Origin: an uncultured Pseudomonadota bacterium
Lineage (GTDB): Bacteria > Pseudomonadota > Gammaproteobacteria > Steroidobacterales > Woeseiaceae
DNA length: 64,000 nt
NCBI GenBank assembly: GCA_913055625.1
Contig: CAJXJW010000006.1
Coordinates: 62,001-126,000, forward strand
Direction of reading: 5' to 3'
The notes beneath the pieces are model-generated. The model was given only the letters and a program-made list of their open reading frames with translations, made no database searches and had not been told where the DNA came from. A program made the position numbers and the translations under genes. Positions within the stretch are counted from its first letter, which is position 1. The number at the start of each line of letters is the position of its first letter. This document shows positions 13,259 through 20,400 of the stretch, piece after piece.

Positions 13259-14269
13259 TCAGGCCGCCCAGTAGGCCGTCGGGTCGCGCGCCGCGATCTT
13301 GCGTTCCCAGGCAAGCGCCGTTTCCACGATCACGTCGAGGTTGTCGAAGCGCGGCGACCAATCCAGGGTCTGTCGAATCCGGTCTGCCACGGCGACGAGT
13401 TCGGGCGGATCGCCCGCCCGTCGTGCTTCCTCGCGAATCACGAGTGGCGCCTTGTTGGCGTGCTCGACGGCGCGCAGCACGTCGCGCACGCTGTAGCCGT
13501 GTCCGTAGCCGCAATTCAGTATCGTGGAAGTCCCGCCGCCGCGAAGGTAGTCGAGTGCCGCCAGGTGCGCAGACGCGAGGTCTTCGACGTGGATGTAGTC
13601 GCGGAGCCCGGTGCCATCCGGCGTGGGGTAATCCGTGCCGAATATCGAAACGTGCGGGCGCCTGCCGACTGCCGCCTCGCAGGCGACCTTGACCAGCAGC
13701 GTCGCGTTCGGCGTCGACTGGCCGATCGTTCCGCTCGGTTCGCACCCCGCCACATTGAAGTAGCGCAGCGACACGTAGCTTGGGCCGCCGGCGTCGGCCA
13801 GGTCACGCAGCATCCACTCGGTCATCAGCTTGGACGTGCCGTAAGGGTTGATGGGCGACGTTTCCGTCGACTCGTCCGCCTTGCCGGTTGCAAGAATCCC
13901 GTAGACCGCGGCCGTGGACGAGAATACGACGTGGCGGACACCGTGCCGATTTGCGACGTCGAGCAGCGTGCGGCTGTTAGCGGTGTTGTTCAGGTAGTAC
14001 TTGAGCGGGCGCGCGACGGACTCGGGCACGACCGTGTGCGCGGCGAAGTGCATGACCGTGTCGATGTCGTACTTTGCGAACAGGGACTCCAGCAATGCCT
14101 CGTCGCCGGTATCGCCGACGACCAGTTCACCACTGGTGACGGCTTCGCGAAAACCGGTGCTCAGGTTGTCCAAGGTGACCACCGTCTCGCCCCTTTCCCC
14201 GAGTTGCCTCAGTACGTGGCTGCCGATGTAACCGGCGCCGCCGGTCAGAAGTATCGTCTTGGTTTTCAT
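13259..14269 (-). CDS. galE: UDP-glucose 4-epimerase
   Basis: 336 residues, the standard GalE length. Extended SDR fold with NAD loop GGAGYIGSH (10-18), catalytic Ser/Thr in FSSTAAVYG (116-124), Tyr143 and Lys147 (NPYGTSK), and the substrate-side RYFNVAG, LRDYIHVEDL and NCGYGHGYSV. It interconverts UDP-glucose and UDP-galactose (or the N-acetyl forms) and so feeds the Leloir pathway and surface polysaccharide. It lies just ahead of glrK on the same strand with a 38-base gap and could be co-transcribed with it. AAAAAAACTCG precedes the ATG, so the ribosome site is weak. Confidence 0.95.
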   Translation of the reverse strand: MKTKTILLTGGAGYIGSHVLRQLGERGETVVTLDNLSTGFREAVTSGELVVGDTGDEALLESLFAKYDIDTVMHFAAHTVVPESVARPLKYYLNNTANSRTLLDVANRHGVRHVVFSSTAAVYGILATGKADESTETSPINPYGTSKLMTEWMLRDLADAGGPSYVSLRYFNVAGCEPSGTIGQSTPNATLLVKVACEAAVGRRPHVSIFGTDYPTPDGTGLRDYIHVEDLASAHLAALDYLRGGGTSTILNCGYGHGYSVRDVLRAVEHANKAPLVIREEARRAGDPPELVAVADRIRQTLDWSPRFDNLDVIVETALAWERKIAARDPTAYWAA

Positions 14270-14458
14270 CGAGTTTTTTTCCGACTTTGCGCAGCTCCGA
14301 AGCGTCGTCGAGCCGCTGCCCTGAACTTTGACCGGCCAAGTCTATCAATACCCATCGGGCATTTTCGGACCTGCATCGCACAAAAAGGTGTCGATTCGGT
14401 CACGGCAATGTGAACCACGTTTTGGGCGGGTTCATATTCGGCGGTTATCATCCGGGGT

Positions 14459-14478
14459 CGGCCACCTGGCAGTGGCCG
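14459..14478 (+). promoter_or_regulatory. Hairpin just upstream of the ribosome site
   Basis: CGGCCAC (14459-14465) and GTGGCCG (14472-14478) form a perfect 7-base-pair stem with a 6-base loop, followed by GTTTTG and, a few bases on, the GAGGAGA ribosome site of the metalloprotease-like gene. A weak promoter candidate lies upstream (TTGGGC, 18 bases, TATCAT at about 14423-14452). The hairpin could shield the start region or stabilise the mRNA. Confidence 0.45.
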
Positions 14479-14494
14479 GTTTTGAGGAGAGCCA

Positions 14495-16576
14495 ATGCAC
14501 GAGGTGCGTTCGCAGGGAAGGCCGCCGGTGGCGGTTGCCGGCAAGGCGGGTTCGTCTGTCCTGGTCATGGCCATGCTGGTCCTCGGCGCTTGTGGCGGAG
14601 GCGGCGGTGGTGGTGACGATGTCCCGACGCCGCCGGCGAACCGGGCGCCGGTCGCTCACGCCGGTGCCGACCAGACTGTCGCCGAGAATACCGTGGTGTC
14701 GCTGGACGGCAGCCTGAGCAGCGACCCGGATACCGGTGACACGCTGACGTACGCGTGGACCCAGACATCGGGGCCCGCCGTCACCCTCGACAATGCCGGT
14801 GGTGCGGCGCCAACGTTCACGGCGCCGGACGTGGCCGCAGGCACGCCGGAAGCGCTGGTCTTCGAGCTCTCCGTCAGCGACGGTGCGTTGTCGAGTACCG
14901 ACACGGTAACGATCAATGTCCAGGAAGGCCAGGCGACCGTCACGATCTCGGGGCGCGTGAATTACGAGTTCGTGCCGCCCAATCCCGGGTGCAGCGGCCT
15001 GAATTTCGCCGGCACCGTTGCCAGGCCGATCCGCGCGGCGACCGTTCAGATCATCGACGACGCGGCGGGTACCGTCATCGCGTCGACGACGTCGAACGAT
15101 GTCGGGGATTACTCGATCGCGAATATCCCGGCGCTGACGATGGTCAGGCTCCGCGTCCGGGCCGAATTGAAGCGCAGCGGCAGCCCGAGCTGGGACGTCG
15201 AGATTCGCGACAATTACGACGACTCGGGCAGCCCGCCGCCGCTGCAGCAGCGACCGCTCTACGTCGTCGACAGCGCCGCCTTCAATGCCGGCGGCGCGGA
15301 CCAGACACGCAACCTGACCGCACCGACCGGCTGGGGCGTTACGAGCTACACCGGCAATCGCGCGGCCGCGCCATTCTCGATCCTGGACGCGATCTATTCC
15401 GGCATGCAGCTCGTACTGACGGTCAGCCCCGGCGCGACGTTCGACCCGCTCGACGCCTACTGGAGCGTCAACAACACGTCCGACAATGGGGATATCAATC
15501 TCGGCGAGCTCGGCTCGTCGTTTTACTCGAGCGACCCGGAAGGGGATTCTGTCCGCAACCCGTCGCTGTTCCTGCTGGGCGATGCAAGCAATGACACCGA
15601 GGAATTCGACCAGAACGTCGTCGCCCACGAGTGGGGACATTATTTCGAGGATTCGTTTTCACGTTCCGATTCCATCGGCGGGGCGCATGCCCTCGGCGAT
15701 TCGCTCGATGCGCGCGTCGCTTTCGGCGAAGGCTGGGCCACGGCACTGGCGGCCATGGCGCTGGCGGAACCGCAATACTGCGACACGGGCGCGGCGGGCA
15801 GCGGGAACGGCTTCGGCATCAATGCCGAGAGCAGCAACTTCGGTCCGCAGGGTTGGTTCAACGAGGTCTCGGTCGTCACGTTGCTGTGGGACCTGTACGA
15901 CGACAACGACGAGGGGAATGACGCGGGCTCCCTCGGTTTTGCGCCGATTTTTGCCACGATGACCGGGCCGCAGGCCAGCACGGCGGCGTTTACCAGCGTG
16001 TTCAGTTTTGCCGCCGAGTTGCGTTCGATGCTGGACAGTACCGACCAGGCATTCCTCGACGCGCAGCTCACGCGTGAGAACATTACGCCGACGGTGATCG
16101 ATATCTGGGGCGACACGGAAACCAACGACATCGGTGGCGGCCGTGACGTGCTGCCCCTGTACACGGATCACGTGGCAGACGGCAGCGTGCTGAACGTCTG
16201 CACGAACAGCGACTACGACCGGCCGGACCGCACCGGCAACAAGCTGGCCGAACACCGGTTCCTGCGCCTGACCGTGCCGGCGACCGATACCTACGACGTG
16301 CTGGTCGAGACGACGACGCCGACGCCGCCGACAGCCGATCCAGACGACCGCGACCAGAGCGATCCCGACGTCTACATTTACGGCAACGGGACCTTCGTCG
16401 CATTCGGCAACAGCCCGGATGAAAACATCGAGGCCTTCCCGACGCAGCTTCCGCTGCAGGCAGGTACCACCTACGTCGTCGACATCGAGGAATGGCGGTT
16501 CAGCGATGCGGACGGCGCGCCATCGAGTTATCCGCAACAGATTTGCTTCGATGTATCCTTTACGCAGACACCCTGA
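14495..16576 (+). CDS. Lipoprotein with Ig/PKD-like domain and HEXXH metalloprotease signature
   Basis: 693 residues. Lipobox VLGAC (Cys33) is followed by a run of seven glycines. Residues 50-148 are a PKD/REJ-like beta domain (APVAHAGADQTV, DGSLSSDPDTGDTLTYAW, ELSVSDG). Residues 150-230 look like a carboxypeptidase-regulatory beta sandwich. The centre has HEWGH at 378-382 and, 29 residues later, GEGW with Glu412, which is the two-His/one-Glu pattern of gluzincin zinc proteases. Hydrophobic helix VVTLLWDLYD follows. The C-terminus (about 580-690) is a beta-rich domain with an acidic loop (PTADPDDRDQSDPDVYIYG) that may bind calcium. I infer a surface-anchored protease; I do not recognise a named family. 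A small lipoprotein gene follows by 19 bases. Confidence 0.7.
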   Translation: MHEVRSQGRPPVAVAGKAGSSVLVMAMLVLGACGGGGGGGDDVPTPPANRAPVAHAGADQTVAENTVVSLDGSLSSDPDTGDTLTYAWTQTSGPAVTLDNAGGAAPTFTAPDVAAGTPEALVFELSVSDGALSSTDTVTINVQEGQATVTISGRVNYEFVPPNPGCSGLNFAGTVARPIRAATVQIIDDAAGTVIASTTSNDVGDYSIANIPALTMVRLRVRAELKRSGSPSWDVEIRDNYDDSGSPPPLQQRPLYVVDSAAFNAGGADQTRNLTAPTGWGVTSYTGNRAAAPFSILDAIYSGMQLVLTVSPGATFDPLDAYWSVNNTSDNGDINLGELGSSFYSSDPEGDSVRNPSLFLLGDASNDTEEFDQNVVAHEWGHYFEDSFSRSDSIGGAHALGDSLDARVAFGEGWATALAAMALAEPQYCDTGAAGSGNGFGINAESSNFGPQGWFNEVSVVTLLWDLYDDNDEGNDAGSLGFAPIFATMTGPQASTAAFTSVFSFAAELRSMLDSTDQAFLDAQLTRENITPTVIDIWGDTETNDIGGGRDVLPLYTDHVADGSVLNVCTNSDYDRPDRTGNKLAEHRFLRLTVPATDTYDVLVETTTPTPPTADPDDRDQSDPDVYIYGNGTFVAFGNSPDENIEAFPTQLPLQAGTTYVVDIEEWRFSDADGAPSSYPQQICFDVSFTQTP

Positions 16577-16595
16577 CGTCCACGGGAACCGAATC

Positions 16596-17174
16596 ATGCG
16601 CTTTCATTGCATCAAGACCCTTGCCGCGACGGCATTCCTCGCCGCCGGATGCAGCCCGCCGGGCAGTGACGGGCAGCCGGCGGCCGCCGATAGCCCGGCA
16701 CCGCCGCCCGACGTCACGTTCATACCCGCGGACGACGCCGCGGAGACCGCCAAAGTATCCGGACCGGTGTCCATCGCGTACCGGATCATCGGCCAGCCCG
16801 TCGTCGGCCAGCCGCTCGCGATCGATCTCGCGGTGACGTCGTCGCTGGGCCGTCAGCCGGTGCGCCTCGACTACCGGATCGTCGACACCTCGGCCCTGCG
16901 GCTCGGCGACGCGCAGACCGCGTTTGCCACCATTGCCGCGAGTTCGGCAGACGTCACCACCGGCGAGCAGCAGGTGACGGTCGTGCCGATGCGCGATGGC
17001 CGCCTGTACCTGAACGTCGCGGCGACGGTCGACACGGCCGAGGGCAGCATGTCCACGGTCACGGCAATTCCCATCCAGGTGGGCGACCTGCGCCGGGAAC
17101 CCGTGAGCAATGGCGTGATCACGACGGACGAGGACGGCAACGCGATTCGCGTGCTGGGCGGCGAGGAGCGCTAG
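16596..17174 (+). CDS. Small lipoprotein, partner of the metalloprotease-like gene
   Basis: 192 residues from ATG 16596; longer in-frame starts lie inside the upstream gene and would spoil the signal peptide. Lipobox LAAGC places the anchored Cys at residue 19, followed by a Pro/Ala/Asp-rich linker. Residues about 55-165 alternate beta strands in the manner of an Ig-like sandwich (VSIAYRIIG, AIDLAVTSS, LDYRIVD, VTVVPMRDGRLYLNVAATV). I do not recognise the family. The 19-base gap suggests co-expression, so it may be a binding partner, inhibitor or substrate of the HEXXH lipoprotein. A terminator-like structure follows. Confidence 0.75.
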   Translation: MRFHCIKTLAATAFLAAGCSPPGSDGQPAAADSPAPPPDVTFIPADDAAETAKVSGPVSIAYRIIGQPVVGQPLAIDLAVTSSLGRQPVRLDYRIVDTSALRLGDAQTAFATIAASSADVTTGEQQVTVVPMRDGRLYLNVAATVDTAEGSMSTVTAIPIQVGDLRREPVSNGVITTDEDGNAIRVLGGEER

Positions 17175-17236
17175 CCGCTTTTCTTATGTAAAAGACCTGA
17201 GACCGAATCTCCGAATTGGGCTACAAGTTGCTGATT

Positions 17237-17284
17237 CCTCGTTCACGAGGCGTCGTGTTAGGGAAAGTTTTCCCAATTTTTTTT
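17237..17284 (+). terminator. Rho-independent terminator with a second hairpin in front
   Basis: GGGAAA/TTTCCC (17261-17274, perfect) followed within two bases by eight T residues (17277-17284) is a standard intrinsic terminator for the lipoprotein pair. A further perfect hairpin CCTCGT/ACGAGG lies at 17237-17250. It also isolates the large cyclic-di-GMP gene, which begins about 130 bases later, from upstream transcription. Confidence 0.75.
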
Positions 17285-17411
17285 CCAAAACATGCGGCGT
17301 TTCACAGACGCTAAATTACGCATTGTCTATCGTTTACCGTCGGTAGACCGGGTTCCGCTCGCAGGCGCGTGCCCGGCCGGCTCGCAGGCAAAGAGCGGTG
17401 GCGTTCGACGC

Positions 17412-20400
17412 ATGGACAAGAAGCTCAGGGACAGGATCCGGCAAGTAACAGCAAGCGATGATGCTCGCAAGGCGGACTTCATCGAGTTGTTGCGTCTTGT
17501 CGATGCGCACTACGACCGCATCGAAGCGACGATCACCCAGTCCGTGAACACCCAGGCGTTCGCCGCAACGCGCACGCCGGTCGATGCCGTTTTCGACAGC
17601 GTGACCGAGGCGCTGTTCTCCGTCGGCAGCAATGGCGCGATCCGGGTCTGCAACAAGATCTGCTCCCGGTACTTCGGGATTCCGAAAGAAGAATTGATCG
17701 GCATGCCGCTTGTCGACCTGATTCCCGATGTCGCCGACACAACGATCGGCGACTTTCTCGAACCGTTCATGGCTGACCTCGACGACACGCACGTCGAAAC
17801 CAGCGGTGGCGAGGTCCGCGCGCGCCGCCGCGACGGCGGGTCGTTCTTCGCCGAAATCAACGCCAGCAGTCTCGACACCGACGATGGCCGTGTCTACGTG
17901 ATCAGCCTTCGCGACGTCACGCAGCGCCGCGAAGCGGAGATCGCCCTCAAGGAGAACGAGGAGCGCTACCGTGCCCTGGTCGAGCACGCGCCGGAAGCCA
18001 TCATCGTGTTCGACGTCGAGAACAACAAGTTCATCGACGTGAACGACAAGGCCTGCGAACTCTTCAACCTGTCCAGGACGCGCCTCCTGACCATCGGCCC
18101 GGAGGCCATCAGCCCGAAGACGCAACCGGACGGCACGCCGTCGTTCGGGGTGCGCCGCGGCCTCGTCGAACGCGCGCTGAACGGCGAGCACCCGACCTTC
18201 GAATGGCTGCACCGGGATTCCACGGGGCGCGAGTTCCCCTGCGAGGTGCGATTCAGCCGGATGCCGTCGCGCGGCCAGTCACTGCTGCGCGTGTCCATTA
18301 CGGATATCGAGGAGCGCAAGCGCAGCGAAACGCTGGCGTTCGCGCAGAACAAGATCCTCGAAATGATTGCCTCGAGCAGCCCCTATGACCAGACGCTGCG
18401 CGCGATCTGTCGATTCGTCGAACGTATCGGGCAGGGTCTGACCGCGGCGATCATGACGCTCGATGCCGACGCGAGCACGCTGACGCTCGAACAGGCGCCG
18501 GGCATGCCGGATGCGCTGTGCCTGCGGCTCGACTTTGTCCCGGTTGCCATCGGCGGGATCACCTGCGGGAAAGCGGCGCACCGTGGCAAGGATACGATCT
18601 CGGCCGACATCGCGAGCGAACCGGGCTGGAGCGACTACCTCGACGACGCCGAGGCCCACGGTATCGGCGCGGCCTGGTCCTTCATCATCAGCGGCGAGGC
18701 CGGGCGGGCCATCGGGACGCTCGACGTGTATTCGCGGCAGGCGCGGGAGCCGGACCCGGACGAACTGGACAAGTTGAGCCGAATGGCGCGCCTGGCCGGT
18801 ATCGCGATCAAGCGGCAGAAAGACGAGGAGCGCCTGCGCAGCAGCGAGGCGCGCTATCGCGGCCTGTTCGAGAACGTCATCGACGGCGTCTACATCGCGT
18901 CGCGTGAAGGCGACATCATCGCCGCCAACCCGGCCTTGGTGGAAATGCTCGGGTACTCGAGCGTCGACGAGATCAAGGCCCTGGGGCGTACGACGATACT
19001 CTACGTCAACCCGATCGACCGCGAGCGCGTCTTCGCGCGGCTCGAAGCGGAGGGAATCGTCAAGAACTTCGAGTACCGCCTGCGGCGAAAGGACGGCAGC
19101 GAGATCGTGGTGCTCGAGAATGCTCGTGCCGTTTACGACGACGACGGCAACATCGTCGCGCACGAAGGCACCATCACGGACATCACGGACCGCAAGGTCG
19201 CAGAGACGCGCATCTTCGAGGAGAAAGAGCGGGCCCAGGTCACGCTGCAGTCGATCGGTGACGGCGTCATCACGACGGATGCGGAGGGGCTCGTCGACTA
19301 CATCAACCCGGTCGCGCAGGACCTGACCGGGCTGGACCTCCGGAGCGCGCGTGGCAGGCCCGTCACCGAGATCATGACGATCATCAACGAGCACACGCGC
19401 GCAACGGTCGAAAACCCGGTCATGCGATGCCTGAAGGACGGGCGTGTCGTGACGCTGGCCGAGAACTCGCTCCTCATTACGCACAAGGGCGAAGAGGTAC
19501 CGATCCAGGATTCGGCGGCGCCGATCCGGGACCGCATCGGCAATATCATCGGCTCCGTCATGGTGTTCCACGACACCAGCAAGGAATCGCGCCTGTTCCG
19601 GCAGCTGTCCTACCAGGCGGCACACGACGCGCTGACGGGGCTGATCAATCGCCGCGAGTTCGAAAACCGCGTTGCGGCGAGCTTCGATGCGCTGAAGAAG
19701 GATGCGCAGCAGTCGCACGCGCTGCTGTACCTCGACCTCGACCAGTTCAAGGTGGTCAACGATACTTTCGGCCATGCCGCGGGCGACGAGCTGCTGCGCC
19801 GCGTGTCCGAGACGGTCCAGGGCCAGATCCGGTCCAGCGACGTGTTCGCGCGCCTCGGCGGAGACGAGTTCGGCATCCTGCTCGAGCGTTGCAGCGAGCA
19901 ACAGGCGATGGATGTCGCCGAGTCCATCCGCAACGCGATCGAGGCCTATCGCTTTGCCTGGCAGGACGCGTTTGCCGCCGTGCGGGTGTCCATCGGGGTC
20001 GTCATGGTGACCTCGGAGCTCCGGGACGTGGCCACGCTGATGAGCTCGGCGGACGTCGCCTGCTATTCCGCGAAGGACCAGGGCCGCAACCAGGTTCACC
20101 TGTACCGCGGCAGCGACGCGACGGTACGGCACGAGGAAATGAAGTGGGTATCGCGCATCACGAGCGCGGTCGAGGACGAGCGGCTCGAGCTCTTTTACCA
20201 GCCGATCATCGGCATCAACGACCGGCACAACACCGTTCGCGGCCACTACGAGCTTTTGCTTCGAATGCGCGATGAGAACGGCTCGCTGGTCAGCCCCGAC
20301 CAGTTCATTCCGGCCGCGGAACGCTACAACCTGATGTCCACGCTCGATCGCTGGGTAATCCACAAGGCATTGTCTGAACTGGCCGATCGCAGCGGCGACG

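Follow-up and report, generated by a model that had tools for sequence, protein, structure and literature searches.

INTRODUCTION

Enzymes with the thermolysin fold have long served as models for the folding and silencing of a protease by a covalently attached pro-domain. Protealysin, an M4 enzyme with a propeptide, has been solved as a precursor, according to the title of the structure. In Serratia its gene shares an operon with that of emfourin, which, as stated in the source extract, binds the active-site region 1:1, protealysin itself being intracellular (PMC9505478). Another relevant case is FP0506 from Flavobacterium psychrophilum, an elastinolytic lipoprotein predicted to lie at the surface and proposed, in the extract of its description, to be a gluzincin of a new family (PMC6414381).

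In this work, we have analysed two adjacent genes in a window of 64,000 nucleotides from an uncultured member of the Woeseiaceae (source genome of 3.63 Mb in 20 contigs). P1 (14495..16576, + strand) codes for a 693-aa lipoprotein with a PKD domain, a CarboxypepD_reg-like beta domain, a predicted thermolysin-fold catalytic domain and a PPC-like domain. P2 (16596..17174, + strand) begins 19 bases past the P1 stop and codes for a 192-aa partner lipoprotein whose lipobox ends at Cys19. Like protealysin and emfourin, they are a putative metallopeptidase and a small dedicated protein in one operon, but P1 and P2 carry export signals, whereas protealysin is described as intracellular in the source extract (PMC9505478). 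FP0506 differs from P1 in its size (296 aa) and in being PF04228/M48-like by HHpred, and the extract mentions no partner gene (PMC6414381); M48 kinship of P1 was weighed and dropped. With the M36 fungalysins (PF02128, NF038111 and NF038112, including the rhombosortase- and myxosortase-dependent bacterial forms) P1 has in common the HEXXH motif and a GEGW-type Glu, but it differs from them in that no PF02128 match, FTP propeptide or conserved His downstream of the zinc Glu was found in it, and in that it has a PPC-like domain and P2. The M4 thermolysins (aureolysin, thermolysin, LasB) include the closest solved fold, but P1 is only 8–11% identical to them in the listed M4 rows, and neither an FTP/PepSY domain nor a GGVHxNS-type His was found in it.

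RESULTS AND DISCUSSION

Conservation of the P1–P2 pair

The pairing of the P1 and P2 genes is firm. We assembled 100 loci, consisting of 20 plus the best 80 of 237 relatives from a scan of genome contigs; since only the best 80 were kept, the loci lean to close homologues. Fourteen of the 100 were dropped as repeats of an identical core, and in 82 of the 86 distinct loci an ORF of the P2 family lies directly behind P1 (plain blastp with a limit of E 1e-3 recognised 71 of these pairings; the other 11 came from an iterated profile whose training set included ORFs found in such a position). Fifteen other matches to the P2 profile at E <0.01 fall in repeat loci or in the second copy of L088. Contig ends account for three of the misses (L060, L061 and L087), and the fourth, L071, is a true P1 without P2 in a genome that also holds a paired copy, L070. 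Tandem arrangements of the types P1-P2-P1-P2 and P1-P2-P1 were seen in L088 and L108, with a diverged one in L105.

Among 99 related genomes, P1 was found in 66 and P2 in 71, and P2 follows on the same strand behind every one of the 70 P1 matches whose 3' end is complete, a count that leaves out 8 partial P1 matches and one weak row of the 79 (G088 contig 103). A class-wide sample of 274 genomes yielded P1 in 18 and P2 in 15, and a P2 match lies next door in 14 of the 16 strong P1 places. At L103 and L104 the P2 position is taken by an exported-looking ORF of 167 or 172 aa to which the P2 profile is blind at E 0.001. Of 349 genomes sampled across the phylum, 6 have P1 matches, and the four strong places among them, two of which also figure in the earlier counts, are all paired. 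Woeseiaceae MAGs supply many of the nearest named homologues, and the rest are mostly MAGs titled only Gammaproteobacteria or Proteobacteria, which points to a probable source of the Woeseiaceae type. The pair also occurs in records of Kangiella, Hirschia and Desulfocapsa, in Nitrospirota and Planctomycetota MAGs (MAG labels can be wrong), and on a 493-kb plasmid of a Comamonadaceae, where both genes are annotated as 'hypothetical protein'. On the Burkholderia ambifaria plasmid pBMC401, typed as conjugative, locus L142 (2788-4945) carries a P1 without the zinc Glu followed by an 81-aa P2-like remnant (E 6e-4), apparently a pair in decay.

The preliminary description of this DNA, made from the sequence alone, had suggested a new protease-partner system, and as a conserved gene pair this proposal is strongly supported by its recurrence in close relatives and in distant taxa. 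No paper on the pair was found in the open-licence literature searched.

Genetic neighbourhood and the downstream palindrome

In the Woeseiaceae-type loci the pair is located between a galE-like epimerase gene accompanied by a histidine kinase gene and a PAS-GGDEF-EAL gene. The epimerase is present in 44 and the kinase in 43 of the 60 loci with enough upstream DNA, and the GGDEF gene in 50 of the 76 with enough downstream DNA. Epimerase, kinase and GGDEF genes were not found in the fetched flanks of the Kangiella, Hirschia, Desulfocapsa and Planctomycetota loci, which identifies the pair itself as the conserved unit.

A strong terminator had been read behind P2, and this reading was not borne out. 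A consensus scan of positions 14200-17500 gave 4 terminator-like sites, against 2.6 (sd 1.3) in shuffles, and Rfam had no match in the same interval. The site behind P2 is a conserved palindrome, GGGAAAGTTTTCCC (GGGAA-N4-TTCCC; 17261..17274, no strand assigned), between P2 and the PAS-GGDEF-EAL gene. Its 5-pair stem does not form when the 129-nt stretch is folded to minimum energy, and in several loci it is flanked by an A-run, not a T-run. Sites with up to 3 mismatches to GGGAAAATTTTCCC are present in 48 of the 52 loci that have both P2 and the GGDEF gene; after shuffling, 1 of the 52 stretches still has one. The pattern GGGAAWNNWTTCCC is found a single time in the whole genome. Instead of a terminator, the palindrome looks like a dedicated regulator site or a promoter element for the GGDEF-EAL gene.

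Domain organisation and predicted fold of P1

By the established lipobox rule, P1 would be anchored to lipid through Cys33, at the end of its signal peptide and lipobox (LGAC; 14495..14593, + strand), and seven Gly follow, as the earlier reading of a Gly7 linker had it. Several P1 proteins that a crude lipobox rule scored 'Sec' have a Cys plus Gly/Ser after the hydrophobic run, so they are probably lipoproteins too. The PKD-like and beta-rich modules noted previously were also recovered: the PKD domain (residues 56-142; 14660..14920, + strand) matches Pfam PF22352 with E 9e-17, a sub-threshold CarboxypepD_reg match covers residues 177-230, and the predicted C-terminal module (residues about 551-692; 16145..16570, + strand) resembles the collagen-binding (PPC) domain of ColG, with Z 11.5 over 96 residues and an rmsd of 2.0. 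In a 1900-aa relative, L106 (741-6443), 14 PKD stretches precede the peptidase and P2 is still behind.

The model of P1, built for residues 136-693 with 74 aligned sequences, has a mean pLDDT of 94.5 and a pTM of 0.93. In structure comparisons its residues about 151-531, within which the stretch matched by CarboxypepD_reg falls, align with whole thermolysin-fold enzymes. The closest solved structure is aureolysin (Z 19.6 over 269 residues, rmsd 3.2, 9% identity), so that the model has the two-domain fold of M4 enzymes; thermolysin gives Z 18.1 and the fungal M36 enzymes give Z 13.4-13.6.

The catalytic site of P1

The HEWGH motif (residues 378-382; 15626..15640, + strand) and Glu412, which lies in a GEGW motif (15728..15730, + strand) and is presumably the third zinc ligand, had been taken for a gluzincin site. 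By analogy, His378 and His382 would be zinc ligands and Glu379 the general base. None of the 74 aligned rows departs from His378, Glu379, His382 and Glu412, and the HEWGH motif as a whole is likewise invariant; together with the thermolysin-like predicted fold, this conservation is more than chance would give. By alignment and predicted fold, P1 would thus have the HEXXH and downstream Glu in a zincin fold that characterise the gluzincins (clan MA(E)). Other residues invariant in all 74 rows are Arg390, His398, Glu457, Asp466, Asp469, Cys569 and Cys684.

The M4 enzymes carry a catalytic His after the Glu ligand (His231 of thermolysin, in GGVHxNS); a motif of this type, [GN]x[VI]HxN, comes after HEXXH in 12 of the 16 same-class M4 segments. 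P1 differs in this respect, as no conserved His was found downstream of Glu412 in the 74-row alignment, the segment 440-470 included. The only columns with His in at least 15 of the 74 rows are 374 (70/74), 378, 382, 398 and 587 (17/74, poorly conserved). When one M36 sequence was aligned by hand, the His231 position appeared to correspond to P1 residue 454, where all 74 rows have an aromatic W, F or Y. We propose that the invariant His398 (15686..15688, + strand), located between the zinc ligands, would take over the role of His231.

Placement of P1 among metallopeptidase families

The view that P1 and P2 belong to no named family holds for Pfam and NCBIfam searches. On the catalytic part of P1 no Pfam model matched up to E 10 (the HMMER filters drop most weak matches), the M4 models PF01447 and PF02868 included. 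The M36 model PF02128 likewise found nothing in this part even at E 10, far from its curated cut-off, and nothing at E 0.01 in the genome that carries P1; with the limit set at E 0.1, it picks out 4 of the 74 P1 members, the best at 0.0055. NF038111 matches 20 of the 74 at E up to 0.1 (best 3e-6), and when the PKD domain of the window P1 was removed, it matched residues 368-425, which cover the zinc site, with E 0.0016, far under the model's cut-off. These matches point to an M36 similarity around the zinc site that is weak, yet above noise, and no Pfam peptidase family claims the protein.

Several other matches were set aside. The whole-P1 matches to NF038112 and NF038111 (E 3e-29 and 7e-22) are no proof of M36 kinship, since it is on the PKD domain that their best displayed stretch falls. 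Profile-profile comparisons with 16 M4 segments (E 0.1) and with 2 M36 segments (E 0.0076 over 12 residues) were not useful, and the single PDB match of the P1 profile, 6xi3, covers the N-terminal beta domain alone. Kinship with M9 collagenases, with which P1 has a predicted PPC-like domain in common, was dropped: PF01752 matches 1 of the 74 members with E 0.043, and the window P1 is not that one. From its sequence and its model, P1 would be a lipid-anchored zinc endopeptidase of the thermolysin fold, in a gluzincin family as yet unassigned.

An apparent lack of propeptide and a candidate partner

A Pfam search found no FTP or PepSY domain in the window P1, and at E 0.01 neither was found in any of 10 chosen P1 homologues. 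For comparison, the search was applied to seven chosen M4/M36 enzymes from the same class, of which six have FTP (one just under the cut-off) and two have PepSY at E 0.01. FTP is not universal within M36 either, being detected in 1 of the 2 M36 enzymes tested. In short P1 members such as that of Kangiella aquimarina, whose stop-to-stop ORF has 549 aa, the beta-domain matches start at residues 77-86, which leaves little room for the usual pro-domain. There may be a divergent pro-domain of another kind, but judging from these sequences P1 seems to do without an FTP/PepSY pro-domain, the part by which M4 and M36 enzymes are folded and silenced.

We infer from these data that P1 has peptidase activity, that P1 and P2 are in contact, and in which direction P2 acts. 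P1 is very probably a peptidase with a dedicated partner. That P2 acts as a pro-domain surrogate or as an inhibitor of P1 is a more tentative reading, to which we give slightly less than an even chance. P2 would then be the dedicated exported partner of P1, in effect a pro-domain supplied in trans; its Ig-like domain would dock on P1, its conserved C-terminal tail would reach the catalytic or the PPC part, and P2 would assist the folding of P1 and/or keep it silent until it is in place. The most elaborate version, a new gluzincin family in which a separate lipoprotein replaces the pro-domain and uses its tail to plug or shape the active site, and in which the transition-state His has moved from the His231 position to His398 in the loop connecting the zinc ligands, is unlikely to be correct in all its parts.

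The fold of P2 and the roles that it could play

The P2 model (77 sequences; pLDDT 83.8, pTM 0.63) predicts an Ig-like sandwich, in agreement with the beta-sandwich lipoprotein of 192 residues seen earlier. The predicted Ig/macroglobulin-like domain (residues 55-163; 16758..17084, + strand) has its best matches, over about 100 residues, in CD109 (Z 12.1) and in the Salmonella alpha-2-macroglobulin (Z 11.9). A fold of this kind is widespread and tells little about function. The window P2 has no Pfam match at E 1, a match to a Pfam family as expected of an emfourin-type inhibitor being likewise absent, and among the 77 P2 members there was no inhibitor family in 25 of the 35 Pfam families, those among the matches listed. 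PDB sequences gave matches to the P2 profile from E 0.057 up, mostly in signal-peptide stretches. Protealysin-emfourin, with the inhibitor gene in the operon of the peptidase, is the nearest working analogy.

Since macroglobulin- and Ig-type domains are a common kind of binding module, P2 could instead be a permanent accessory subunit with no part in the silencing or folding of P1, serving to extend substrate binding or to keep P1 stable on the membrane. The membrane can be shared, since the crude lipobox rule, which overlooks some lipoboxes, scores both proteins as lipoproteins in 60 of the 86 loci. However, PKD and PPC-like modules are already present in P1, P2 is plain Sec in 8 of 82 loci by the same crude rule, so a shared anchor is not always required, and the missing propeptide would be left unexplained; we regard this role as rather unlikely. 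Less probable still is that P2 acts as a periplasmic escort and delivers the lipoprotein P1 to the outer membrane or the surface. Both proteins are exported from genes lying side by side, and 5 of 77 P2 proteins match the XAC1346 family secretion chaperone of NCBIfam, but these matches are weak (best E 0.014), the window P2 has no NCBIfam match, and by the crude rule P2 has a lipobox of its own in 73 of 82 loci.

P2 copies without P1 and the C-terminal tail

In the reading that we favour, P2 as a pro-domain surrogate or inhibitor, the part that would reach into P1 is the conserved C-terminal tail (17112..17171, + strand; consensus NGxxxxDExGExxRxLPA, from the alignment and a tail profile). P2 relatives without an adjoining P1 were found in L101, L102, L143, L144, L145 and L147; the genome of L102 carries a proper pair elsewhere, and L146 is uninformative, as its contig stops where P1 would sit. 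These copies could indicate that P2 serves a separate function in the envelope, its link with P1 being one of regulation only, or that it is a substrate processed by P1. The adjacency in all 70 complete matches in relatives and the pairing in distant taxa amid otherwise different neighbours count against both possibilities, as does the tail, and we consider them very unlikely.

The P2 profile has 188 positions and was made from paired copies, which it therefore favours. Its match extends to position 185 or beyond in 78 of the 81 paired copies versus 1 of 6 copies without P1 (the count omits the contig-cut G037 and G090, the fragments G036 contig 88, G086 and G269, and repeats of G000 and G069). 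Of 12 further paired copies, 3 fall short of position 185. With a tail profile of 56 rows, taken as Woeseiaceae-type by locus number, 5 of the 6 orphans score <=0 or not at all, versus 6 of the 33 paired copies outside the training rows (two of the six are an identical sequence). Exceptions occur in both directions: L143 retains the tail though its genome, G004, has no P1 match, and the P2 of L090 has no tail, yet is paired with P1. In L144 (genome G021), where the epimerase, kinase and GGDEF genes are present and no P1 was found, P2 ends ahead of the tail. Because the species are related, the tail counts are suggestive only, and those orphans that come from other families may be paralogues in which the tail was never present.

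A regular expression for the tail motif did not separate the groups (74/89 vs 3/6, p 0.08; 25/33 vs 3/6, p 0.32); it was badly chosen, as it also matches the end of the P2 Ig domain. Stand-alone P2-like lipoproteins without the usual tail are located at 5240-5848 in L101, 5225-5824 in L102 and 3897-4505 in L147, the last with epimerase and histidine kinase genes nearby, like those of the Woeseiaceae locus.

Implications

The conserved adjacency of P1 and P2 fits any obligate joint function. Since P2 travels with P1 through distant bacteria, our data suggest that it controls or completes the enzyme. If our proposal is true, there would be a widespread branch of thermolysin-fold enzymes with no recognisable pro-domain and a separate exported partner, in which folding help and inhibition could be studied in trans. 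The Woeseiaceae, common bacteria of marine sediments, are described as protein degraders in the extracts of two reports (PMC7082342, PMC12175321), and a so far unannotated peptidase family would be added to them.
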